Below, piece after piece: positions 1 through 10,434 of a stretch of DNA of 64,000 nt. Made by a program: the position numbers and the translations under genes. This DNA is from Pelagibacterales bacterium SAG-MED19 (lineage in GTDB: Bacteria; Pseudomonadota; Alphaproteobacteria; Pelagibacterales; Pelagibacteraceae), in NCBI GenBank assembly GCA_014654035.1, contig JACWDQ010000001.1, forward strand, positions 62,001-126,000, in the 5' to 3' direction. The notes under the pieces are model-generated. The model saw only the letters and a program-made list of their open reading frames with translations. It was not told the origin of the DNA and did no database searches. How positions within the stretch are numbered: position 1 is the first letter of the stretch; the number at the start of each line of letters is the position of its first letter.

Positions 1-1
1 C

Positions 2-1213
2 TGGCCATTTAAACAACATAAAACCTCTAGAAATATTAAAACTTTACCTCATCACGATAATCTCAAAAGTTTTGGTGCATGCTTTGGTGTTTCTGGTGGA
101 TATGAAAGACCTATGTGGTTTGCCTTAGATGGAGAAAAAGCTGAGTACGAATATAGCTACAATTATCAAAGCTGGTATCCATCAGCAGAATATGAAACCA
201 ATAATACTATCAAAAATGTCGGTTTATTTGATCTGACACCTTTTTCTAAGTTTGAAATAAAATCAGAAAAAGCACACCAAGAGCTTCAAAAGATATGTAC
301 TGCTAACATCAAAAATGAACCAGGTAAATGTACTTATACTCATATGCTTAATCCTGATGGTGGAATAGAAACAGATTTAACAGTTGTTTGTGTTAAAAAT
401 AATCATTTTAGAATAATAAGTTCAGCGGCAACAAGAGAAAGAGATAAATTTCATATAAAAAAATATCTCTCAAAAGATATTGAATTAAAAGACATTACAG
501 ATGATTTGTGTGTGTTCGGATTATTTGGTCCAAAAAGCAGAGATCTAATAAAAACAATATCTAAAGATAATTTTGAAAATAATGATTTTAGATTTGGCAC
601 AGCAAAATATATCACAATTGAAGGTATAAAGATTTGGGCTCAAAGATTGTCTTATGTGGGAGAATTAGGTTACGAATTATATGTTGATTTTAAAGATGCT
701 AAAAAAATTTACGAAATAATCATTAATAAAGGTAAAAATTTTAATCTTTCAAACTGCGGTATGCATGCAATGGATATAATGCGAATGGAAAGTGGATTTT
801 TACATTGGGGTCATGATATTTCTCCTGAGGAAAACCAATATCAAGCTGGATTGTCTTTTACCATCAGCAAAAAAAAGGATGTAGATTTTATAGGAAAAAA
901 AGCAATAGAAAAAATTAAACAAAAAAAGACAAAAACTAGATTTGCCATGTTTACTCTTAAAGAAAGTGAACCAGGAAAGCCTTTATTGTTACATGACGAA
1001 CCTATTTATATTGATAATAAAATTATAGGAAGATCAACGTCAGGGAATTACTCATTCAATTTCAAAAAGAATTTGGTATTTGGTTATATTAAAAATGATT
1101 TATCCAATGATGAGCTTCAATATAAAAATTTATTCATTGAAGTGGAAAAAAAGAAATACCCAATATCAGTTCAATTAGAGGCCCTAAAACGAACAGACTA
1201 TAAAAATTTATAA
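2..1213 (+). CDS. Dimethylglycine/sarcosine dehydrogenase-type protein, C-terminal GcvT part (5' partial)
   Basis: The frame is open from base 2, so the gene begins upstream of the window. The first visible residues include GACFGVSGGYERPMWFA, typical of the linker between the FAD oxidoreductase and the folate-binding GcvT domain in dimethylglycine or sarcosine dehydrogenases. The rest is a GcvT fold with GLFDLTPFSKFEI, GYELYV and a GMHAMDIMRMESG segment. Such enzymes oxidatively demethylate methylated glycines and pass the one-carbon unit to tetrahydrofolate. The exact substrate (dimethylglycine, sarcosine or a related amine) cannot be decided because the FAD half is outside the window. The next gene converges on it and abuts it with no gap. 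Confidence 0.85.
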   Translation, partial: WPFKQHKTSRNIKTLPHHDNLKSFGACFGVSGGYERPMWFALDGEKAEYEYSYNYQSWYPSAEYETNNTIKNVGLFDLTPFSKFEIKSEKAHQELQKICTANIKNEPGKCTYTHMLNPDGGIETDLTVVCVKNNHFRIISSAATRERDKFHIKKYLSKDIELKDITDDLCVFGLFGPKSRDLIKTISKDNFENNDFRFGTAKYITIEGIKIWAQRLSYVGELGYELYVDFKDAKKIYEIIINKGKNFNLSNCGMHAMDIMRMESGFLHWGHDISPEENQYQAGLSFTISKKKDVDFIGKKAIEKIKQKKTKTRFAMFTLKESEPGKPLLLHDEPIYIDNKIIGRSTSGNYSFNFKKNLVFGYIKNDLSNDELQYKNLFIEVEKKKYPISVQLEALKRTDYKNL

Positions 1214-2065
1214 TTAAGTTTGTTTTCTTAATATAAGAACAAAAATTACAGAAGTAATCATCATGATTAATGCATAAGCTGCAGTTGGAACCATATAAGT
1301 CATATTAGTACCAAATAATTGCAATCCTACAAAAACTGCTAAAGTTCCATTTTGAAGTCCAGCTTCTAAAGATATGCATCTTCTTTGGGCAACTCCAGTA
1401 GTAAAAAATTTAGCTATATAAAAAGCTACAACCATCATTGTAACATTTAAGGCTAAAGCAATTGCTCCAGCTTTGGTTATAAACATCACAATGCTATCCC
1501 ATTCTTCAATATATATAGCAATAAAAACAATACAGAATAAACCAATAGATATTTTATTGATAATTTTCATATTGTTTACAATGAAATTACCCCACAGCTT
1601 TCTCAAAATCATTCCAATTATTACTGGAACTGTCACAACAAAAAACATCTTCAAAGATATACTAAGCATTGAAACTTCACTTTTGACGTATGTAATGTCA
1701 AATAATTCAATCGATAAAAAAACTACGTAAGGAACGGATACAATACTAATTAGACTAGTTATTGCTGTTAAAGATATTGAAAGAGCCACATCTCCATTAG
1801 CAAATTTTGTTAGTACATTTGAAGTTACGCCACCAGGAGCTGCAGCAATTAACATTACACCTAAAGCTAATTCAACTGGAGTTCTTAAAATAATTATTAA
1901 GAAATATGCAACAACAGGAAGCAATACTACCTGACAAAACATCCCAATAAAAAAATCTTTAGGACTCTGAACAACTCTTGTAAAATCTTTTACTGTCAAA
2001 GATGCACCTAATCCTAACATGATTAGTGCTAATGCAATTGGTGCTATTGTTGTTACTATACCCAT
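1214..2065 (-). CDS. Bile acid:sodium symporter (BASS) family transporter
   Basis: This is a hydrophobic protein of about 283 residues with roughly nine or ten predicted membrane segments. Family motifs include LGLGASLTVKDF near the N-terminus and APGGVTSNVLTKFANGDVALS in the middle, the sodium-site region of BASS proteins. Later, SLEAGLQNGTLA matches the conserved ExGxQN stretch. A longer start 24 bases upstream is possible, but an AGAGGGG ribosome-binding sequence lies directly before the ATG at 2065, so that start is chosen. Members move organic anions with Na+, for example bile acids, pyruvate or pantoate; the substrate here is unknown. It lies downstream of the regulator gene on the same strand, 63 bp away. 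Confidence 0.85.
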   Translation of the reverse strand: MGIVTTIAPIALALIMLGLGASLTVKDFTRVVQSPKDFFIGMFCQVVLLPVVAYFLIIILRTPVELALGVMLIAAAPGGVTSNVLTKFANGDVALSISLTAITSLISIVSVPYVVFLSIELFDITYVKSEVSMLSISLKMFFVVTVPVIIGMILRKLWGNFIVNNMKIINKISIGLFCIVFIAIYIEEWDSIVMFITKAGAIALALNVTMMVVAFYIAKFFTTGVAQRRCISLEAGLQNGTLAVFVGLQLFGTNMTYMVPTAAYALIMMITSVIFVLILRKQT

Positions 2066-2128
2066 GACCCCTCTGCGTAATATTAACAAAGATAACTTTA
2101 AAGATTTTTATAACTAAATGAAAGAAGT

Positions 2129-3115
2129 TTATGAAATAGTTAAAAGATTTAGTGTCTTTCGCAAAAATTTTGCTTTATTTCTAAAAATTTTTCTTTGATA
2201 AGGAATAACTTTATCAAGATTCATTCCAGTCAATACATATTGTTTTTTATCATTAAGTTTCAAATAACCATGATTTATTAAAAATTTACATTTTCTTATT
2301 ACCGTTGCTCTTGGAATATCTGTCATATCAGATAAAGACATTGCACTTACACCAGATGTTTCATCATTTTCTTGATCTGTGACAATACCTTTATTAAATT
2401 TCATATAGTCTGGAGTTAAAGAGCGTATGTTTGAATCAGTCATATTCTTTTTATAATTAAAAGCTTGGTTCATTACAACAGTACCCCAAAGATGGAAAGT
2501 TGCTATGTCTTCAAACATTTCATGGTAGCCAATAACCATAGGAATTTGCATTCTGTAAAACCATCTCCAACACAAAGAAAAGTTTCTTTTAATTATTTGT
2601 TCAATATATTTTGAATCAATTTTTTTTGTATAAATTCCATCTTTATTAAAAATTTCAGAAATTAAATAAATATATTTAGCCGTTAATTTTATCTGCCTTT
2701 CAGGCTTTACCTGAGAAAAGACAGAACGATCAATTATTATTTGTTTTTTTATTCGCTTTAAAACACCTAATTTTTCAAGTTCTAAAACTTTTCGTCTAAC
2801 AGTTTCTTTAGGTAATTGAAGTTTTTCACAAAGTTCTGTAATACTAAATTTTTCTATATAAAGATTTGATTTTGAATAAAAATGATCAAAGGAATGTTGA
2901 ATATTCATTTGATCGTAAAATTGTAAAGTTTTTTCAACTAAAGAAATTACAATCAGATATTTATAATGATCTTTAAAAGCCTGGTACACATTATTCATCC
3001 AGCTCCATTGATGAACAATCCAATCTCTTCCTAACTGATCATAGCTTCTCATCATATGATCATAAACTTGATCATCAGTAAGTACTTTTGAAAAATCTAT
3101 TTGTCTTAAACTCAT
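2129..3115 (-). CDS. Putative transcriptional regulator with two winged-helix segments
   Basis: No named family is recognised. Two stretches look like helix-turn-helix/winged-helix units: ITELCEKLQLPKETVRRKV in the N-terminal half, and MSLSDMTDIPRATVIRKC near the C-terminus, each followed by a short hydrophobic wing (GVLKRIKKQ and GYLKLNDKKQ). This resembles a duplicated MarR/IclR-like DNA-binding unit, though no effector domain is obvious. The first ATG of the frame is at 3115. A GTG 60 bases further out would add a hydrophobic tail and lacks a clear ribosome site, so ATG is preferred. It is transcribed towards the BASS transporter, which it may regulate. Function is inferred only. Confidence 0.6.
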   Translation of the reverse strand: MSLRQIDFSKVLTDDQVYDHMMRSYDQLGRDWIVHQWSWMNNVYQAFKDHYKYLIVISLVEKTLQFYDQMNIQHSFDHFYSKSNLYIEKFSITELCEKLQLPKETVRRKVLELEKLGVLKRIKKQIIIDRSVFSQVKPERQIKLTAKYIYLISEIFNKDGIYTKKIDSKYIEQIIKRNFSLCWRWFYRMQIPMVIGYHEMFEDIATFHLWGTVVMNQAFNYKKNMTDSNIRSLTPDYMKFNKGIVTDQENDETSGVSAMSLSDMTDIPRATVIRKCKFLINHGYLKLNDKKQYVLTGMNLDKVIPYQRKIFRNKAKFLRKTLNLLTIS

Positions 3116-3227
3116 AATTGTATAAATGAAATAAGAAACCCAAAATGAACATGTGTCAATCAAATAGTGACCCACATTGAACTTTCATTAAATTGATAGG
3201 TAACACACGGTATGATTAACTACACTC

Positions 3228-3458
3228 ATGACTACTAAAGGCTTTGCGGATAATCAAACTCACATCGAGACCCCAAATGATGTAAGTTTTTCTGAAAAGC
3301 CTTTAAAACCTGAACAAATTAAATCTAATAGAGTAGACATAAACGTGTTAAAGGCAAAACTACAAGATACTGAAAGTAAAGAGTTCAAAAAAAATGTTTA
3401 TATACTTTCAACTTTAGTTTTGGGCCTAGGCATTTTAGGAATTTACTTATCTCTATGA
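3228..3458 (+). CDS. Small tail-anchored membrane protein
   Basis: The 76-residue product has a polar, probably flexible N-terminal part and one C-terminal membrane segment (YILSTLVLGLGILGIYLSL) that ends the protein. There is no signal peptide, so the topology is that of a tail-anchored protein with its soluble part in the cytoplasm. A basic and amphipathic stretch, VDINVLKAKLQDTESKEFKK, precedes the membrane segment. The following gene has the same design. No known family is recognised. The start is the first ATG after a short AT-rich leader with no obvious Shine-Dalgarno sequence. Confidence 0.6.
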   Translation: MTTKGFADNQTHIETPNDVSFSEKPLKPEQIKSNRVDINVLKAKLQDTESKEFKKNVYILSTLVLGLGILGIYLSL

Positions 3459-3498
3459 GAAATTTGCAATAATTATTAATTCGTGTTTTAATTGATTT

Positions 3499-3705
3499 AT
3501 GAAAAATATCAGTTCTAGTGTTAAAACCAAAATACTTTCAAGTTATTTAAATACTAACACAACTAAAAATTTACCAAAAAGCACTAATGTTAATGTCTTG
3601 TTAAATAGAGTTAAAACTAACGAGAAAAACGAAGGTAGAAAAAAAATATATTTTTCTGCTGCTGCTTCTGCAGGTCTTTTTTTGTTTGGTTTAATAATCT
3701 TTTAG
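3499..3705 (+). CDS. Small tail-anchored membrane protein, similar in design to its neighbour
   Basis: The 68-residue product has a Ser/Thr/Asn/Lys-rich N-terminal part, then a short NVNVLLNRVKTNEKNEGRKK segment and a C-terminal membrane helix (IYFSAAASAGLFLFGLIIF). The NVxVL...K...K(N/K) pattern followed by a terminal helix matches the preceding 76-residue protein, so the two may be diverged paralogues. They are separated by 40 bp and probably co-transcribed. The function is unknown. The short length makes the call less certain than for larger genes, but the conserved architecture of two adjacent frames supports real coding. Confidence 0.55.
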   Translation: MKNISSSVKTKILSSYLNTNTTKNLPKSTNVNVLLNRVKTNEKNEGRKKIYFSAAASAGLFLFGLIIF

Positions 3706-3768
3706 TAAAATAACCAATTTTCCTAAAAATATTAATATTTCATTAGCTAATTGATATTGAATCAAAAT

Positions 3769-3886
3769 ATTAAACTATTATAAATCAAATTCTAAATAAG
3801 GCGGGGTAGCTCAGTTGGTTAGAGCGCGGGACTCATAAGCCCGAGGTCAGTGGTTCGATCCCACTTCCCGCTACCAATAGTTTAAT
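3769..3886. repeat. 11-bp inverted repeat flanking the tRNA gene
   Basis: ATTAAACTATT at 3769-3779 is the exact reverse complement of AATAGTTTAAT at 3876-3886. The left arm lies 20 bp before the tRNA and the right arm begins at the last base of CCA and runs into the stop of rmlA. In a precursor transcript the two arms could pair and close a long stem around the tRNA. Confidence 0.6.
3800..3876 (+). tRNA. tRNA-Met (anticodon CAT)
   Basis: A complete 77-nt cloverleaf is visible. The acceptor is GGCGGGG with TCCCGCT (G-U pairs at both ends), followed by U8 and A9, the D arm GCTC/GAGC, the anticodon loop CTCATAA, the variable loop AGGTC, the T arm AGTGG/CCACT with loop TTCGATC, then A73 and an encoded CCA. 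The initiator pattern (mispaired 1-72 and GGG/CCC next to the loop) is absent, so elongator Met is most likely; a lysidine-modified tRNA-Ile2 with the same anticodon cannot be fully excluded. The anticodon stem has an A31·G39 mismatch. Confidence 0.93.
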
Positions 3887-4751
3887 TTATTAATTTCTTT
3901 AAATAATTTGAGTATTCACAATTTCCATAAAATTTAATGGATTCCACTATTTGTTTTTTATTAATCCATTTTTTATTTAATGAAATTTCCTCAAGACAGG
4001 CAATTTTAAATCCTTGTCTATTTTCAATTGCTGAGACAAAAGCTGATGTTTTGTAAAAATCTTCAATTGATCCGGTATCAAGCCAAGCACCACCTCTACC
4101 AATTAAATCAGCTGATAATTGTTTTTTTGATTTATAAAAATTTAATAAATCTACAATCTCTACCTCTCCTCTTTTTGAAGGTTTTAATTTTTTTGCATAA
4201 TTTACAACTTTGTTATCAAAAAAATATAAGCCAGTTATAGCTAAATCAGATAAGAATTTTTTAGGTTTTTCTTTAATTGAAATTATCTTGTTTTGTTTGT
4301 TTATTTTAGCAACACCAAAGAGCTCTGGTTTTGAAACTTTGTGCAAAACAACCTTAGCACCTTTTTTAAGTTTTGTATTTATCAAAAGTTTTCCAGTTAA
4401 ATTTTGCCCATAGAAAAAATTATCACCGAGTATCATTGCAACATTTTCTTTACCAATAAATTTTTCACCAATTACAAATGCATCTGGTAATCCTCTTGGT
4501 TTAGACTGCTCTAAATAAGTAATTTTAATTCCTAAATTATTTCCATTGGGTAATAATTTTTTATATTGATTCAATTGACCTTTGTTTACTATAATTAAAA
4601 TATCTTTTATATTAGCTAACATTAAAATAGATAAAGGATAAAAAATTAATGGTTTATCATAAATTGGAAGTAGTTGTTTATTTACAGCTTTGGTTAACGG
4701 ACTCATACGAGTTCCTTGTCCACCAGCTAGTATAATTCCTTTTTTAATCAT
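3882..4751 (-). CDS. rfbA: Glucose-1-phosphate thymidylyltransferase (RmlA)
   Basis: The enzyme joins glucose 1-phosphate and dTTP to give dTDP-glucose, the first step of dTDP-deoxysugar synthesis. The N-terminus shows the nucleotidyltransferase signature GGQGTRMSPLTKAVNKQLLP at about residues 10-29, then LGDNFFYG near residue 108 and GRGGAWLDTG in the C-terminal third. The length of 289 residues is normal. Its start overlaps the end of rmlB by 4 bp, so the two are one operon with rmlB first. The stop lies inside the right arm of the inverted repeat that flanks the tRNA. rmlC and rmlD are not adjacent. Confidence 0.95.
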   Translation of the reverse strand: MIKKGIILAGGQGTRMSPLTKAVNKQLLPIYDKPLIFYPLSILMLANIKDILIIVNKGQLNQYKKLLPNGNNLGIKITYLEQSKPRGLPDAFVIGEKFIGKENVAMILGDNFFYGQNLTGKLLINTKLKKGAKVVLHKVSKPELFGVAKINKQNKIISIKEKPKKFLSDLAITGLYFFDNKVVNYAKKLKPSKRGEVEIVDLLNFYKSKKQLSADLIGRGGAWLDTGSIEDFYKTSAFVSAIENRQGFKIACLEEISLNKKWINKKQIVESIKFYGNCEYSNYLKKLIN

Positions 4752-5761
4752 CCTTTACCAATTCTTCTTACAATGTCTTTTTTTGACAATGAGTTATAGT
4801 ATGTTTTATTCTTGTAATACCAATCAAAAGTTAATCTAATTCCTTGTCTAAAATTTGTCCTTGGACGCCAACCTAATTTATTCTTAATTTTATTACTATT
4901 TAATGCATATCTTATGTCATGTCCTGGGCGATCTTTAACAAATAATATTTTTATTTTTTTTCCTACTTTAAAAATTTTTTTTGAAATATTAATTAATTCT
5001 TTAGAAACTTGTAAATTATTCAAATTTTTATTTGAACCAATGTTGTAAAATTCACCAATTTTTCCTTTTAAAAAAATTTTTAACAAAGCTTCACAATGAT
5101 CTTTTACATATATCCACTCTCTTGAATTTTTTCCTTTTCCATAAATTGGTAAAGGCTTATTGTTTAGAATATTATATATAAGTTTTGGTATTAGTTTTTC
5201 TGGATGTTGTTTTGGTCCATAATTATTTGAGCAATTTGTAATTATTGCAGGAATCTTATAAGTTCTAACATAAGAGCTTACTAAATGATCAGATGCAGCT
5301 TTGCTTGCTGCATAAGGAGAACTTGGTTTATAAGGATAAACTTCTGACGATCTACCAGATAATATGTCCCCATAAACTTCATCTGTTGAAATATGAATTA
5401 GTTTTGACTTATACTTTTTTGAATAATCTTTAAAACACTCTAATAAATTAAAAACACCTACAATATTACTTTGGATAAAATTTTCAGGGTTATCAATTGA
5501 TCTATCTACATGAGTTTCGGCAGCAAGATTAAAAACGGCATCAGGTTTGTGTTTAAAAAGTATTTTTTTAAGTTTTTTATCTTTAATATTGCACTTTATA
5601 AATTTGTATTTTCTTGAATTTATATATTCTTTTGTATTATAAAAATTTGATGAATAACTTACTTTATCAATGTTAATTACATAGAATTTTTTAGAAATAA
5701 GTAAATCTATTAAATTACTTCCAATAAATCCTAATCCACCAGTAACAAGAATTTTTTTCAT
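4748..5761 (-). CDS. rfbB: dTDP-glucose 4,6-dehydratase (RmlB)
   Basis: This is a short-chain dehydrogenase/reductase-fold enzyme that converts dTDP-glucose to dTDP-4-keto-6-deoxyglucose using tightly bound NAD. The Rossmann motif TGGLGFIGSNL is at residues 7-17. The family-specific catalytic T126-D127-E128 triad and Y150xxxK154 are all present, as is the early NLAAETHVDRSI block. Its 337 residues match the family. It is transcribed just after apt (8 bp away) and overlaps rmlA by 4 bp. The product could feed the amino-sugar and C-methyl genes at the far end of the window, but that link is only inferred. Confidence 0.95.
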   Translation of the reverse strand: MKKILVTGGLGFIGSNLIDLLISKKFYVINIDKVSYSSNFYNTKEYINSRKYKFIKCNIKDKKLKKILFKHKPDAVFNLAAETHVDRSIDNPENFIQSNIVGVFNLLECFKDYSKKYKSKLIHISTDEVYGDILSGRSSEVYPYKPSSPYAASKAASDHLVSSYVRTYKIPAIITNCSNNYGPKQHPEKLIPKLIYNILNNKPLPIYGKGKNSREWIYVKDHCEALLKIFLKGKIGEFYNIGSNKNLNNLQVSKELINISKKIFKVGKKIKILFVKDRPGHDIRYALNSNKIKNKLGWRPRTNFRQGIRLTFDWYYKNKTYYNSLSKKDIVRRIGKG

Positions 5762-5769
5762 TTCAATTA

Positions 5770-6297
5770 TTAATGACCCGGAAACTCAATTAAATTTTCT
5801 ACTTTATACCCTTTTTTAATCAAATTGTCAGAACCATTTAAATCAAAAAGATTTATAACGAACACAAAACAAGCAACGTTTCCACCAGATATTTCTATTA
5901 ATTTAGCAGCAGCCTCAGCAGTACCACCTGTTGCGATTAAATCATCAATTATCAGAACTTTATCATCAATATTAAACGAGTCTTTATGCACCTCTATAGT
6001 TGCTGTTCCATACTCTAGTTCAAAATCAACAGTATGGACTTCAGCAGGTAATTTATTTTTTTTTCTCAACATTATAAAAGGTTTTTTTAAAATATATGAA
6101 ACAGCAGATGCAAAAACAAAACCTCTGGACTCAATAGCTGCTATTTTATTAAAGTTATATTTTTTTGACCTTTTCACTATCTGATCAATAGTATTGGCAA
6201 ATGCTTTTTCGTCTTTAATTAGGGTTGTAATGTCTCTAAATAATATACCTTTTTTTGGATAATCAGGAATAGACCTAATAAAATCTTTTAAATTCAT
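5770..6297 (-). CDS. apt: Adenine phosphoribosyltransferase
   Basis: The enzyme salvages adenine with PRPP to make AMP in the cytoplasm. The PRPP-binding signature VLIIDDLIATGGTAEA lies at residues 114-129, and the APT-specific IPDYPKKGILFRDIT is at the N-terminus. The length of 175 residues is normal. The gene is divergent from mtnP with only 41 bp between their starts. This makes biochemical sense, because MtnP releases the adenine that Apt uses. It is probably also co-transcribed with rmlB and rmlA downstream. Confidence 0.95.
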   Translation of the reverse strand: MNLKDFIRSIPDYPKKGILFRDITTLIKDEKAFANTIDQIVKRSKKYNFNKIAAIESRGFVFASAVSYILKKPFIMLRKKNKLPAEVHTVDFELEYGTATIEVHKDSFNIDDKVLIIDDLIATGGTAEAAAKLIEISGGNVACFVFVINLFDLNGSDNLIKKGYKVENLIEFPGH

Positions 6298-6338
6298 AAT
6301 AGTAATTTATAAAACTATAAATAAATTAATTTTTAAAC

Positions 6339-7211
6339 ATGACAATAAATAAATTGGCTATAATAGGTGGTAGTGGTCTTTATGATGTTGAAGAGTTCAA
6401 AAATAGGGAATTATTGGATTTAAACACCCCTTGGGGAAAGCCTTCAGATCAAATTTTAAAAACTAATTATAATAATAAAGAAGTTTATTTTTTACCTCGA
6501 CATGGAAGGGGTCATTTTATTTCTCCATCAAAAATAAACTTCAGAGCAAACATTGATGCTCTAAAGCAATTAGGCGTAACAGATATTGTATCGGTTTCAG
6601 CCGTTGGTTCTTTAAAAGAAAATTTACCACCAGGAAAGTTTGTAATTGTTGATCAATTTATAGACCGGACTTTCGCGAGAGAAAAAACTTTTTTTGATGA
6701 AGAGATTGTTGCCCATGTTTCTATGGCATACCCTACATCTAATGGTTTAATGGATGCCTGTGAAGACGCAATTAAAAAAGAAAAAATTGAATATCAAAGA
6801 AATGGAACATATGTTGTTATGGAAGGTCCACAATTTTCAACGCTAGCAGAGTCTAAATTATATAGATCTTGGAAAGCAGATGTAATTGGGATGACAAACA
6901 TGCCTGAAGCAAAATTAATTAGAGAGGCAGAAATTAGATATGCATCTGTATCTATGGTTACTGATTACGATTGTTGGCATCCAGATCATGAAAATGTTGA
7001 TGTGCAACAAGTGATCAAAGTTTTATTAGGAAATGCTGCAAAAGCAAAAAATATGATAAAAAATTTAATAGAAAATTTTGAAAATCATATTGATCCAAAG
7101 GATCCAACAAATAATTGTTTAGATGTAGCAATCATTACTGCTCCAGAAAAAAGAACAAAAAAAACAATAAATAAATTGAAAACAATTGCAGGTAGAGTTT
7201 TAATCAAATGA
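6339..7211 (+). CDS. mtnP: S-methyl-5'-thioadenosine phosphorylase
   Basis: The enzyme splits methylthioadenosine with phosphate into adenine and 5-methylthioribose 1-phosphate. The N-terminus has AIIGGSGLYDVEEF and the PRHGRGH phosphate-site motif. The substrate region VMEGPQFSTLAESKLYRSW and the family signature GMTNMPEAKLIREAE...TDYDCW follow. The length of 290 residues fits MTA phosphorylase rather than general purine nucleoside phosphorylase. It heads an operon with a lipoprotein gene (4-bp overlap), mtnA, an aldolase and the speD-speE fusion, whose spermidine synthase half makes the MTA it consumes. Confidence 0.95.
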   Translation: MTINKLAIIGGSGLYDVEEFKNRELLDLNTPWGKPSDQILKTNYNNKEVYFLPRHGRGHFISPSKINFRANIDALKQLGVTDIVSVSAVGSLKENLPPGKFVIVDQFIDRTFAREKTFFDEEIVAHVSMAYPTSNGLMDACEDAIKKEKIEYQRNGTYVVMEGPQFSTLAESKLYRSWKADVIGMTNMPEAKLIREAEIRYASVSMVTDYDCWHPDHENVDVQQVIKVLLGNAAKAKNMIKNLIENFENHIDPKDPTNNCLDVAIITAPEKRTKKTINKLKTIAGRVLIK

Positions 7212-7672
7212 AAAAAATTCTTATATTAATATTTTTTTTTGTTTATTCATGTGCCAAACCTACTGTGGTAGAAATAACTCAACCTGACGATGGTCTTTTA
7301 AATTGCAAAGAACTAAAACAAGAGATTGAGGAAACAAATAAAATTAAAGAGGAGGCAGAGTTTTCAAAAGACTCTGGTGGCAACATTGCTAGAGCACTCT
7401 TGTTTTGGCCAGCATGGGCACAATCTTTAAACAATGCTAATGATGCAATGATTGCAGCTAATAGTAGATCTTTTCATTTAATTAAATTAATGAGAGATAA
7501 AAATTGTCCTGGTGCAGACAAACTAAAAGCCAAGATATTAGATAAACCAAAAAAAGAAAATATAAGTGAGTCGAATTTAGCTGATCAACTTAAAACTCTA
7601 AAAGAACTATACGAGGATGGACATCTTTCTGATGAAGAATACACTAAAGCTAAAAAAAGGATTATAGATTAA
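7208..7672 (+). CDS. Lipoprotein with C-terminal SHOCT domain
   Basis: The 154-residue product starts with a lipoprotein signal peptide, MKKILILIFFFVYSC, with the lipidated Cys at 15. A small helical region follows, and the C-terminus (residues 123-154) is a SHOCT-type helical hairpin, LKELYEDGHLSDEEYTKAKK. The protein is predicted to be anchored to a membrane on the periplasmic side. No enzymatic function is recognised. It lies between mtnP and mtnA with a 4-bp overlap upstream and 1-bp overlap downstream, so it is translated with the MTA-salvage enzymes. Why an envelope protein sits there is unclear. Confidence 0.8.
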   Translation: MKKILILIFFFVYSCAKPTVVEITQPDDGLLNCKELKQEIEETNKIKEEAEFSKDSGGNIARALLFWPAWAQSLNNANDAMIAANSRSFHLIKLMRDKNCPGADKLKAKILDKPKKENISESNLADQLKTLKELYEDGHLSDEEYTKAKKRIID

Positions 7673-8742
7673 TGAAAATCGAAGGTAAAGAATATCTTAC
7701 TATTTGGTTTGAAAATAATGTTGTTAAAATAATTGACCAAACAAAACTTCCACATCAATTTATCATTAAAGATTTAAAAACAGTCAAAGATGCAATAAAT
7801 GCAATTAAAATTATGGAAGTAAGAGGTGCCCCATTAATAGGAGCAACAGCCGCATATGGATTAGTGTTAGCAATATTAGAAAAAAATAATCAATCATTTT
7901 TAAAAAAATCTGCTGAGGATTTGGTAAAATCAAGACCGACTGCAATTAATTTAAAATGGGCAGTAGATAGAATGATGAGTAAAATTTCAGGCTTAAATAG
8001 TGATGAAATTTTAGATATTGCTATCCATGAAGCAAAAGAAATTTGTGAAGAAGATATTAAGTTTTGTGAAAATATTGGACTAAACGGCCTAAAAATTATT
8101 GAGGAAATTTATAATAAAAAAAAAGATACAATAAATATTTTAACTCATTGTAATGCAGGTTGGCTTGCAACAATAAATTGGGGAACCGCAACTTCTCCAA
8201 TTTATCATGCACATAAAAAAGGTATTCCAGTTCATGTTTGGGCTGATGAAACGAGACCAAGAAATCAAGGAGCTAACTTGACTTCATATGAATTAAATGA
8301 AGAAGGGATTAAAAATACAATCATAGCAGATAATACAGGTGGTATTTTAATGCAAAGAGGTGAAGTTGATATGTGTATTGTTGGAACAGATAGAACTTTA
8401 TCTAACGGAGATGTTTGTAATAAAGTTGGGACTTATTTAAAAGCGCTTGCAGCTCATGATAATGATATTCCTTTTTATGTAGCATTACCTAGCTCAACGA
8501 TTGATTGGAATATAAAAAACCACAAAGATATTCCAATTGAAGAAAGGGTCTCTGAGGAATTATCACACATAGAAGGTTTAGATGATGAGGGAAATATTAA
8601 AAAAATTCAAATTTATCCAAAAAAAAGTGTAGCAATGAATTTAGCTTTTGATGTTACACCTGCCAAATATATTACAGGTTTGATAACTGAAAAAGGCATA
8701 TGTCAAGCATCAGAAAAAGGACTGAAAGAATTATTTAAATGA
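7672..8742 (+). CDS. mtnA: S-methyl-5-thioribose-1-phosphate isomerase
   Basis: The enzyme isomerises methylthioribose 1-phosphate to methylthioribulose 1-phosphate in methionine/MTA salvage. It has the eIF2B-like fold, with MEVRGAPLIGATAAYGL near the N-terminus. Cys160 (THCNAGWLAT) and Asp240 (VGTDRTLSNGDVCNK) occupy the positions of the catalytic pair described for this family. The length of 356 residues is normal. It overlaps the lipoprotein gene by 1 bp and the aldolase gene by 4 bp, so it belongs to the mtnP operon. Confidence 0.95.
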   Translation: MKIEGKEYLTIWFENNVVKIIDQTKLPHQFIIKDLKTVKDAINAIKIMEVRGAPLIGATAAYGLVLAILEKNNQSFLKKSAEDLVKSRPTAINLKWAVDRMMSKISGLNSDEILDIAIHEAKEICEEDIKFCENIGLNGLKIIEEIYNKKKDTINILTHCNAGWLATINWGTATSPIYHAHKKGIPVHVWADETRPRNQGANLTSYELNEEGIKNTIIADNTGGILMQRGEVDMCIVGTDRTLSNGDVCNKVGTYLKALAAHDNDIPFYVALPSSTIDWNIKNHKDIPIEERVSEELSHIEGLDDEGNIKKIQIYPKKSVAMNLAFDVTPAKYITGLITEKGICQASEKGLKELFK

Positions 8743-9392
8743 AAAATTTAGATCAAAGAAATCAAATTATTGAATATTCTCTAAAATTAAATTCTACAAA
8801 TCTTTCACCATTAAGATCAGGCAATATATCATTAAGGGGAATAGAAGATGATATAGAGGGATACTTAATTACTCCATCAGGAAAAAAATATGAAACACTA
8901 AAACCTGAAGATATTGTTTTTATGGGTTTAAATGAAGAAGAAGAAAATAACTCCACGAACAAACCCTCATCTGAATGGAGATTTCATCGAGATATTTATG
9001 TTAATAAAAAAGAGGCACATGCCATTGTTCACGCTCATTCTCCACACGCGACAGCTGTATCTTCACATGGAAAACCTATTCCACCGTTTCATTATATGGT
9101 TGCTCTTGCAGGAGGAGATGACATTAAATGTGCTAAATATGCTACTTTTGGAACAGAAGAATTATCTAAAAATGTAATTAAAGCTTTAGAAAATAGATCT
9201 GCTTGTTTAATGTCTAATCATGGTCAGGTTGCTTTTGGAAAAAATTTAGAGGATACGTTTGAGCTTGCGCAAGAGATAGAAAACATTTGTCATCAATACA
9301 TTATTACTCTAAGGTTAGGTAAACCTAAAATTCTTTCATTAGAAGAAATGAAAAAAGTTTTAGATAAGGCTAAAAACTATAAAAAAGGGTAA
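8739..9392 (+). CDS. Class II (FucA-like) aldolase, probable methylthioribulose-1-phosphate aldolase (Ald2 type)
   Basis: This is a zinc-dependent class II aldolase of 217 residues. Glu79 (SSEW), His98 and His100 (HAH) and His161 (NHG) match the catalytic and zinc residues of L-fuculose-1-phosphate aldolase with a constant offset of six. The stretch CAKYATFGTEELSKNV is FucA-like rather than like the methylthioribulose dehydratase MtnB. After MtnP and MtnA, such an aldolase would cut methylthioribulose 1-phosphate to dihydroxyacetone phosphate and methylthioacetaldehyde, as in the DHAP shunt. MtnB, or a sugar-phosphate aldolase with another substrate, remains possible. It overlaps mtnA by 4 bp. 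Confidence 0.8.
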   Translation: MKNLDQRNQIIEYSLKLNSTNLSPLRSGNISLRGIEDDIEGYLITPSGKKYETLKPEDIVFMGLNEEEENNSTNKPSSEWRFHRDIYVNKKEAHAIVHAHSPHATAVSSHGKPIPPFHYMVALAGGDDIKCAKYATFGTEELSKNVIKALENRSACLMSNHGQVAFGKNLEDTFELAQEIENICHQYIITLRLGKPKILSLEEMKKVLDKAKNYKKG

Positions 9393-9393
9393 G

Positions 9394-10434
9394 ATGATTA
9401 AAGTTGGGGAACATATTACTTTAGATATTATAGGTACTACAAAAGAGTACGATCCCTCAATTTATGAGAAGGTTATTAATAAAATAGCTAAAGCTGCAGA
9501 TGTAACTATTTTAAATATTTCAAAATATAAATTTGAACCTCAAGGATTTACAATTTTGGCACTATTAGCAGAAAGCCATATTAGCTTTCATACTTTTCCA
9601 GAAAAAGGAATAATAAGTTTTGATTTTTTTACATGCGGAAAAATAAGCCCATCCATAGCAATTGATATTGTTAAAAAAGAATTTGAACATAAAAGAATTG
9701 TCAAAAAAGAATTTAATAGAGACACAAAATCTCTTTACCATGATATTTATAGCTCTCCAGGACTACAAAAATCATATGTGGTAAATGAAGTTTTAGAGGA
9801 CTTTAAATCAAAAGTCGGTCAACATATAGAAATTTTGGAATTAGAACAGTTTGGAAAATCCTTATTTATTGATGGAGAAATACAAGTAGCAGCTTCTGAT
9901 GAACATCTTTATAGCTCAACTTTTGTTGGAGCAGGTTTAAAATTAAATAAAAACAATGAAAGAGCAGCAATTATTGGTGGTGGAGATGGAGGTGTTGCAA
10001 GAGAATGCATCTCAAAGAAATTTAATTTTATTGATTGGTATGAACTTGATCCTGAAGTAGTAGAAGTTTGTAGTAAACATTTGGGAGATATTGGAAATAA
10101 GGCTACAGAAAAAAATTCAGTCAAGTGTGTTTGGGGCGATGCATTTGAAAGCATTAAATCAGTAAGTGACGATGCTTATGATCATATATTTGTTGATCTA
10201 AATGATGATCAATTTTGCATAGATTTGGCTGCCAAAAACATGGACTCATTAGTAAGAATTTTGAAGCCTAAAGGAGTTATTACAGCTCAAGTTGGAAGCC
10301 AAGATAAAAAACCTCTTCAAGTTGAAAATTGGTTAAATGTATTTAATCATTACTTCGGAAATACCAATTTAGCCAGAGTTTATATACCTAGTTTTGACTG
10401 TTCTTGGAATTTTTCTTCATCAATTAATCACTAA
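9394..10434 (+). CDS. S-adenosylmethionine decarboxylase-spermidine synthase fusion (SpeD-SpeE)
   Basis: Residues 1 to about 110 form a prokaryotic SpeD domain. LLAESHISFHTFPE carries the self-cleavage site between Glu60 and Ser61 (Ser61 becomes the pyruvoyl group), and His66 and Cys81 (FFTCG) sit where the processing and catalytic residues are expected. From about residue 115 a spermidine synthase follows, with SLFIDGEIQVAASDEHLYSS, the AdoMet loop AIIGGGDGGVARE at 192-204 and the acidic VDLNDD site. The single chain would decarboxylate AdoMet and transfer its aminopropyl group to a polyamine acceptor, releasing MTA. It is the last gene of the MTA-salvage operon, one base after the aldolase. 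Confidence 0.93.
   Translation: MIKVGEHITLDIIGTTKEYDPSIYEKVINKIAKAADVTILNISKYKFEPQGFTILALLAESHISFHTFPEKGIISFDFFTCGKISPSIAIDIVKKEFEHKRIVKKEFNRDTKSLYHDIYSSPGLQKSYVVNEVLEDFKSKVGQHIEILELEQFGKSLFIDGEIQVAASDEHLYSSTFVGAGLKLNKNNERAAIIGGGDGGVARECISKKFNFIDWYELDPEVVEVCSKHLGDIGNKATEKNSVKCVWGDAFESIKSVSDDAYDHIFVDLNDDQFCIDLAAKNMDSLVRILKPKGVITAQVGSQDKKPLQVENWLNVFNHYFGNTNLARVYIPSFDCSWNFSSSINH

Follow-up and report, generated by a model that had tools for sequence, protein, structure and literature searches.

SpeD-SpeE fusions of other bacteria were reportedly described by Green et al. 2011. The closest described systems are the fusions of the SAR11 strains HTCC1062 (WP_011282223) and HTCC7211 (WP_008544956), which, according to the available text of PMC11107197, are the single aminopropyltransferases of their genomes. 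There, both halves are reported to work when expressed in E. coli speD and speE mutants, with spermidine formed in the speD mutant, spermine and thermospermine in the speE mutant, and norspermidine when 1,3-diaminopropane was supplied. The accessible part of PMC8437039 describes SAR11 SpeE as a multidomain gene-fusion product with a broad substrate range and credits Green et al. 2011, while that of PMC12803844 traces animal spermine synthase back to a bacterial fusion of this kind, the N-terminal domain of the animal enzyme having lost its decarboxylase function.

We analysed a 64,000-nucleotide stretch (the window) of contig JACWDQ010000001.1 from Pelagibacterales bacterium SAG-MED19, in which an earlier note had claimed that AdoMet decarboxylase (SpeD) and spermidine synthase (SpeE) are fused in one chain. 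Our results confirmed the fusion. The gene is one uninterrupted frame that begins with ATG, lacks internal stops and carries three Pfam domains above their curated cut-offs: AdoMet_dc (PF02675, residues 7-109, E 3.9e-27), Spermine_synt_N (PF17284, residues 119-165, E 7.9e-08) and Spermine_synth (PF01564, residues 170-340, E 9.1e-24). A chance frame or an assembly join was ruled out by 117 full-length loci with the same frame. With both domains in one frame, a SAR11 lineage and a single copy, the SAG-MED19 gene is an ordinary member of an already known and published family. Likened by description, it shares with the HTCC1062 and HTCC7211 fusions the lineage, the domain order and an N-terminal class 1b SpeD, the species being different (PMC11107197, available text). 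Three other bacterial fusions of the same class (L107, L108 and L111) also carry SpeD followed by SpeE in one chain, but they are 24-27% identical to the SAG-MED19 protein (tblastn), form a starred separate branch of the tree and have frames of 388-411 aa. Human spermine synthase (3c6k) also combines a SpeD-like N-terminal domain with an aminopropyltransferase, at 18-20% identity.

Table 1. Positions of the SpeD-SpeE fusion gene, its parts and its neighbours in the window, and of related copies on phage contigs (contig coordinates).
Feature	Position	Strand	Remarks
Phosphoribosyltransferase, apt-like	5770..6297	-	PF00156; named apt by eye
mtnP, methylthioadenosine phosphorylase	6339..7211	+	NF006492, 441.3 bits (cut-off 437); TIGR01694 above cut-off
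Small lipoprotein-like protein, SHOCT domain	7208..7672	+	PF09851; lipoprotein by eye
mtnA, methylthioribose-1-phosphate isomerase	7672..8742	+	TIGR00512, 422.1 bits (cut-off 279)
Class II aldolase	8739..9392	+	PF00596; NF005302 191.9 bits vs mtnB TIGR03328 64.4 bits, both below cut-offs
SpeD-SpeE fusion gene	9394..10434	+	346 aa plus stop
Class 1b AdoMet decarboxylase domain, residues 7-109	9412..9720	+	PF02675; TIGR03330; 1vr7 match
Glu60-Ser61 codons, predicted self-cleavage and pyruvoyl site	9571..9576	+	Invariant in 117/117 full-length loci
Junction of the two domains, residues 110-118	9721..9747	+	Lies between Pfam boundaries
Aminopropyltransferase domain, residues 119-340	9748..10413	+	PF17284, PF01564; C-terminus ~37-54 residues short vs stand-alone SpeE
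Phage fusion copies	L173 2807-3850; L177 6773-7816		SAR11-type SpeD-SpeE inside nrdA-nrdB run, IMG/VR contigs
Phage contig L201, with a fusion fragment	1-6803		gp25-like and gp6-like baseplate genes, PAAR, nuclease

The two halves differed in how closely they matched their reference profiles. The SpeD half scored 96.3 bits against TIGR03330, the class 1b equivalog of NCBIfam (cut-off 75.65), whereas the SpeE half fell below both NCBIfam SpeE equivalog cut-offs (TIGR00417, 99.8 vs 249.55 bits, NF002010, 124.1 vs 260 bits, respectively), for which its early C-terminal stop is one likely reason. Short and divergent, the SpeE half is assigned at the domain level only. PF03602 also matched this half, barely above its cut-off, and was taken as a sign of a shared methyltransferase-like fold.

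The catalytic residues named in the earlier note (Glu60, Ser61, His66 and Cys81) were correctly numbered. Conservation was counted over the 117 loci, among 152 with a match, that have frames of 346-347 aa; the other 35, namely 10 relatives whose copy is truncated at a contig end or broken in frame and 25 comparison loci from other families of the class, were left out. The processing motif ESH (E60, S61 and H62), H66 and C81 were invariant in 117/117, loci that are not independent, given that some species are present twice and that 80 of them are the best 80 of 579 named loci. We take these residues to be those of processing and of the active site in class 1b SpeD, as in T. maritima SpeD. In the SpeE half, the claimed AdoMet loop was recovered as IIGGGDGG at residues 193-200, and D198, E217, D219, D268 and D271, presumably the acidic active-site residues of the aminopropyltransferase, were identical in 33/33 aligned rows. 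Furthermore, the bacterial spermine synthase signature, given in the available text of PMC11107197 as an Asp in motif 2 with a Gly two residues on and a Glu in motif 3, was found as D198, G200 and E217, motif 3 having been placed by eye.

The early end of the SpeE half is a property of the family. The NF002010 match ran no further than position 233 of its 287, structural alignment to 1iy9 stopped at residue 238 of that 275-residue chain, and the length of 346-347 aa, hence the short SpeE end, was common to all 117 full-length loci. Two of the distant fusions of the class, L107 and L108, keep what we take to be the usual SpeE C-terminal end, and L111 ends differently. We also observed that residues 268-272 read DLNDD throughout the 117 full-length loci, compared to DSTEP in 1iy9 and DSSDP in 2hte. 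In the accessible portions of the literature on these fusions, we found no discussion of DLNDD at this position or of the lost C-terminal end.

An AlphaFold2 model of the fusion, computed from 25 alignment rows (mean pLDDT 78.5, pTM 0.60), recovered both domain folds. The top PDB matches of the full chain in Foldseek were human spermine synthase (3c6k, E 3.8e-20, and 3c6m), ahead of stand-alone spermidine synthases. With VIA-align, T. maritima SpeD (1vr7) scored Z 16.6 over model residues 2-114, most of the listed SpeE chains scored Z 20-22 over residues 111-346, and human spermine synthase scored Z 20.5 with an rmsd of 9.3 Å over 323 residues; full-chain alignments with the human enzyme gave an rmsd of 9.3-10.8 Å. 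Because the model is middling, it does not fix the arrangement of the two domains. A fold search of BFVD with the model returned partial matches only, headed by a Bacillus phage SpeD of 357 aa (191 columns, rmsd 14.5); the SpeE half matched no Bacillus phage.

The SAG-MED19 genome (1.01 Mb, 50 contigs, 84.31% complete) contains one copy of the fusion. A profile search of this genome with Pfam cut-offs found no unfused SpeD or SpeE in the 84.31% that is covered, and the missing part could hold one. In the 61-genome relative set, all 31 SpeD matches of the genus of SAG-MED19, its own included, lay in fusion frames of 348-362 aa. An unfused paralogue carrying out the reactions, which the earlier note had named as grounds for rejecting its reading, was thus found neither in the incomplete genome nor among the SpeD matches of the genus. 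Additional PF01564 matches of at most 45 bits were observed above the cut-off in G011 (544-aa frame) and G014 (263-aa frame) and below it in G003, at a second place in G015 and in G050; no SpeD match was found at those places.

The best 80 of 579 named loci were all titled Pelagibacteraceae or Ca. Pelagibacter and were 91-97% identical to the SAG-MED19 fusion; L058 and L062, from genomes named Ca. Pelagibacter ubique, encode proteins 94% identical to it. Across the order, a match at E <= 0.001 was detected in 248 of 297 genomes, a set with a completeness limit of 85% in which the SAG-MED19 genome (84%) was included; among the 248 are one weak partial match (E 6.9e-5, in G050) and several copies truncated at contig ends or interrupted by frame breaks. 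When the count was restricted to genomes that are at least 90% complete, 123/152 had a match and 29/152 had none, family f2 being among the latter. The 29 near-complete genomes without a match indicate that not all members of the order need the enzyme. One further copy (L145/L153, G135:C9:12353-13391) is split into two overlapping frames inside its contig, by either a sequencing error or pseudogene formation.

Family f2, the second family of the order, yielded no SpeE above the cut-off in its 24 genomes of the 61-genome set, and a short SpeD frame of 130 aa in only two of them (G039:C19:1471-1776 and G050:C3:141975-142289). Since they occur without any SpeE above the cut-off, these short frames are candidates for a SpeD turned arginine or ornithine decarboxylase, a change described in the accessible part of PMC10407285. 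In an evenly drawn sample of the class, 162/386 genomes had a match. Among the class matches listed, most show two places, as separate speD and speE genes would, and long single matches at 26-33% identity (L106-L109, L111 and L113), some with internal stops, suggest other fusions.

The fusion is the last gene of a tightly packed run with mtnP, the lipoprotein-like gene, mtnA and the aldolase gene, in which successive genes overlap by 1-4 bases and the aldolase and fusion genes are separated by a 1-base gap. Among the 80 near relatives, the aldolase gene lies at most 100 bases upstream of the fusion in 78/80 and a gene for an ABC-transporter binding protein lies downstream in 79/80. The arrangement is looser among more distant relatives: of 12 loci belonging to other genera, 7 show the aldolase, which lies within 100 bases of the fusion in 5. 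mtnA was missing from 4 of 11 genomes (G012, G293, G080 and G083, three of them single-contig), the 11 having been picked by hand, partly because three had shown the fusion without an adjacent mtnA.

As methylthioadenosine (MTA) is the by-product of aminopropyl transfer, the gene run pairs production with disposal. MTA would be taken up by the products of mtnP, mtnA and the aldolase gene just upstream of the fusion. By its profile scores, the aldolase appears nearer to fuculose/ribulose-phosphate aldolases than to MtnB, which fits an ending of the DHAP-shunt type. As for the substrate, the SAG-MED19 genome carries two PF02784 (ODC-fold) genes and two arginase/agmatinase genes, one of each lying about 1.5 kb apart on contig C47. 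PF02784 presumably also covers diaminopimelate decarboxylase, which one of the two genes may encode, and this leaves the C47 gene as the one reasonable candidate for agmatine production. Putrescine would plausibly come from this ODC-fold arginine decarboxylase and the nearby agmatinase, elsewhere in the genome than the fusion, and also from uptake, which is reported for SAR11. In the available text of PMC9992855, a Pelagibacter ODC homologue is an arginine decarboxylase and lies in gene clusters with arginase/agmatinase homologues.

By analogy with its characterised homologues, we are confident that the fusion would act as the bifunctional, self-cleaving AdoMet decarboxylase-aminopropyltransferase of SAR11 bacteria (Pelagibacteraceae), making spermidine, spermine and thermospermine. 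If processed like class 1b SpeD, the chain would cleave itself before Ser61 into a beta piece of 60 residues and an alpha piece of 286 residues, the latter carrying an N-terminal pyruvoyl group and the whole synthase. This split, already proposed in the earlier note, is predicted from class 1b processing residues that are all intact. The SpeD part would then make decarboxylated AdoMet (dcAdoMet), and the SpeE part would move its aminopropyl group to putrescine, then to spermidine. The name spermidine synthase is too narrow: according to the accessible part of PMC11107197, the products of the HTCC1062 and HTCC7211 homologues include spermine and thermospermine, which would be expected of the SAG-MED19 enzyme as well.

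Beyond the fusion itself, the earlier interpretation was partly supported. It included channelling, in which the fusion would hand dcAdoMet, assumed to be unstable, straight over from the pyruvoyl site to that of the synthase. Both active sites do belong to a single chain, and as few as ~9 residues separate the Pfam domains; however, a fusion alone does not imply channelling, the placement of the domains in the model is uncertain, as the pTM and the large full-chain rmsd against human spermine synthase indicate, and the word "channeling", in that spelling, is absent from the three polyamine fusion papers. We therefore regard direct transfer as unlikely. Another possibility is that the SpeE half runs largely backwards in vivo and degrades imported spermidine, as proposed for SAR11 in the accessible part of PMC8437039, where putrescine rose in spermidine-fed HTCC7211 and a reversible SpeE was put forward. 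The same text notes that SpeE is known as irreversible in other cells and that the HTCC1062 data are less clear, and a fused SpeD with adjacent MTA genes suits synthesis better, making a mainly reverse role quite improbable.

It is more than doubtful, and in our view close to excluded, that the SpeD half decarboxylates arginine or ornithine instead of AdoMet. Such drift of SpeD is widespread among bacteria (PMC10407285, accessible part) and the SpeD of pelagiphage HTVC201P is an arginine decarboxylase (PMC9992855, available text), but the fused aminopropyltransferase requires dcAdoMet, no second SpeD was found in the 84% complete genome, the TIGR03330 score exceeds its cut-off, and a speD mutant regains spermidine when given the HTCC1062 or the HTCC7211 fusion (PMC11107197, available text).

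A scan of IMG/VR with the SAR11 alignment revealed eight contigs that carry the fusion at 60-62% identity and one contig with SpeD alone; re-scans of IMG/VR returned the same contigs and no further fusions. The eight contigs represent five different fusion sequences, L173 being identical to L174, and L176 to L169 and L178 where they overlap. In L173, L174, L176, L169 and L177, the fusion directly follows the stop codon of nrdA, and nrdB overlaps it or comes immediately after. Contig L178, cut before nrdA, starts within the fusion and continues with nrdB. L177 also encodes a phage primase; L178 has genes for a carbamoyltransferase and a RuvC-like resolvase. Of the catalogued phages, Pelagibacter phage Mosig EXVC030M comes nearest (87.4% identity in NrdA); its nrdA-nrdB slot is occupied by two hypothetical genes, and that of HTVC008M by a hypothetical gene and a "ferredoxin". 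Therefore, this slot holds different cargo in different phages.

Among 50,697 records of catalogued phages, no single place covers at least 80% of the SAG-MED19 fusion or of the L177 fusion. Phage SpeD and SpeE encoded as separate proteins have been described (PMC9992855, available text), and the words "fusion" and "fused" are absent from the main text of that survey of viral polyamine enzymes. Polyamine terms were not found in Wittmers et al. 2022, on pelagiphage metabolic genes, and no report of a fused SpeD-SpeE in phages was found among the open-access papers listed. The occurrence of related fusion copies in viruses that probably infect SAR11 bacteria thus looks new.

Two of the phage contigs differ in context. 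In L175 (434-2969), a fusion 94% identical to that of L173 is flanked upstream by a GMP-reductase-like gene and downstream by a small gene, after which comes a diverged nrdB (67% identical to that of L177). The 68 bases preceding the start of this fusion match the end of the L173 nrdA exactly (21 codons, the stop and two bases), and no match was observed further upstream (141 of 494 bases ungapped, about chance). From these sequences, the fusion looks to have moved together with a piece of nrdA; a chimeric contig would be the alternative. In the tree, the fusion fragment of L201 is placed together with genera g8, g10 and g11 from the family of the SAG-MED19 fusion (100/100), apart from the nrdA-slot copies, and a single clade of all phage rows was rejected (AU p 2.4e-06, the constraint having been chosen after the tree was seen). 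The base of the family is poorly resolved in this tree, with 10/32 inner branches open, and 2/3 outgroup rows are long branches. On this placement, L201 is a putative second, separate phage capture of a SAR11-type fusion. An IMG/VR scan with the L201 fragment found only L201 itself.

The checked positions are kept in the seven phage rows, except for one D272N and one F334Y. Between four phage copies, silent change exceeded amino-acid change in 6/6 pairwise comparisons, both over the whole gene (NG86 dN/dS ~0.11-0.28) and in each half of the fusion. We think it likely that T4-like pelagiphages carry the fusion as a travelling metabolic gene, which they acquired on at least two occasions from SAR11-type hosts, which later moved with an nrdA tail and which provides spermidine or spermine by a single gene. 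One capture would have placed it in the nrdA-nrdB slot and the other beside baseplate genes, the number and direction of these transfers being inferred; from the nrdA slot, it would have passed on to another phage background with the last 21 codons of nrdA. An infected cell would then make spermidine or spermine through one phage gene, coupled to phage dNTP synthesis, to the presumed benefit of a phage with SAR11 hosts.

The SAG-MED19 gene, itself already known, confirms a two-in-one enzyme of very common ocean bacteria, with disposal of the by-product encoded alongside it in one gene run. It is the phage copies that deserve a second look: if the fused pair between phage ribonucleotide reductase genes is what it appears to be, phages could bring the whole putrescine-to-spermidine step in one gene.
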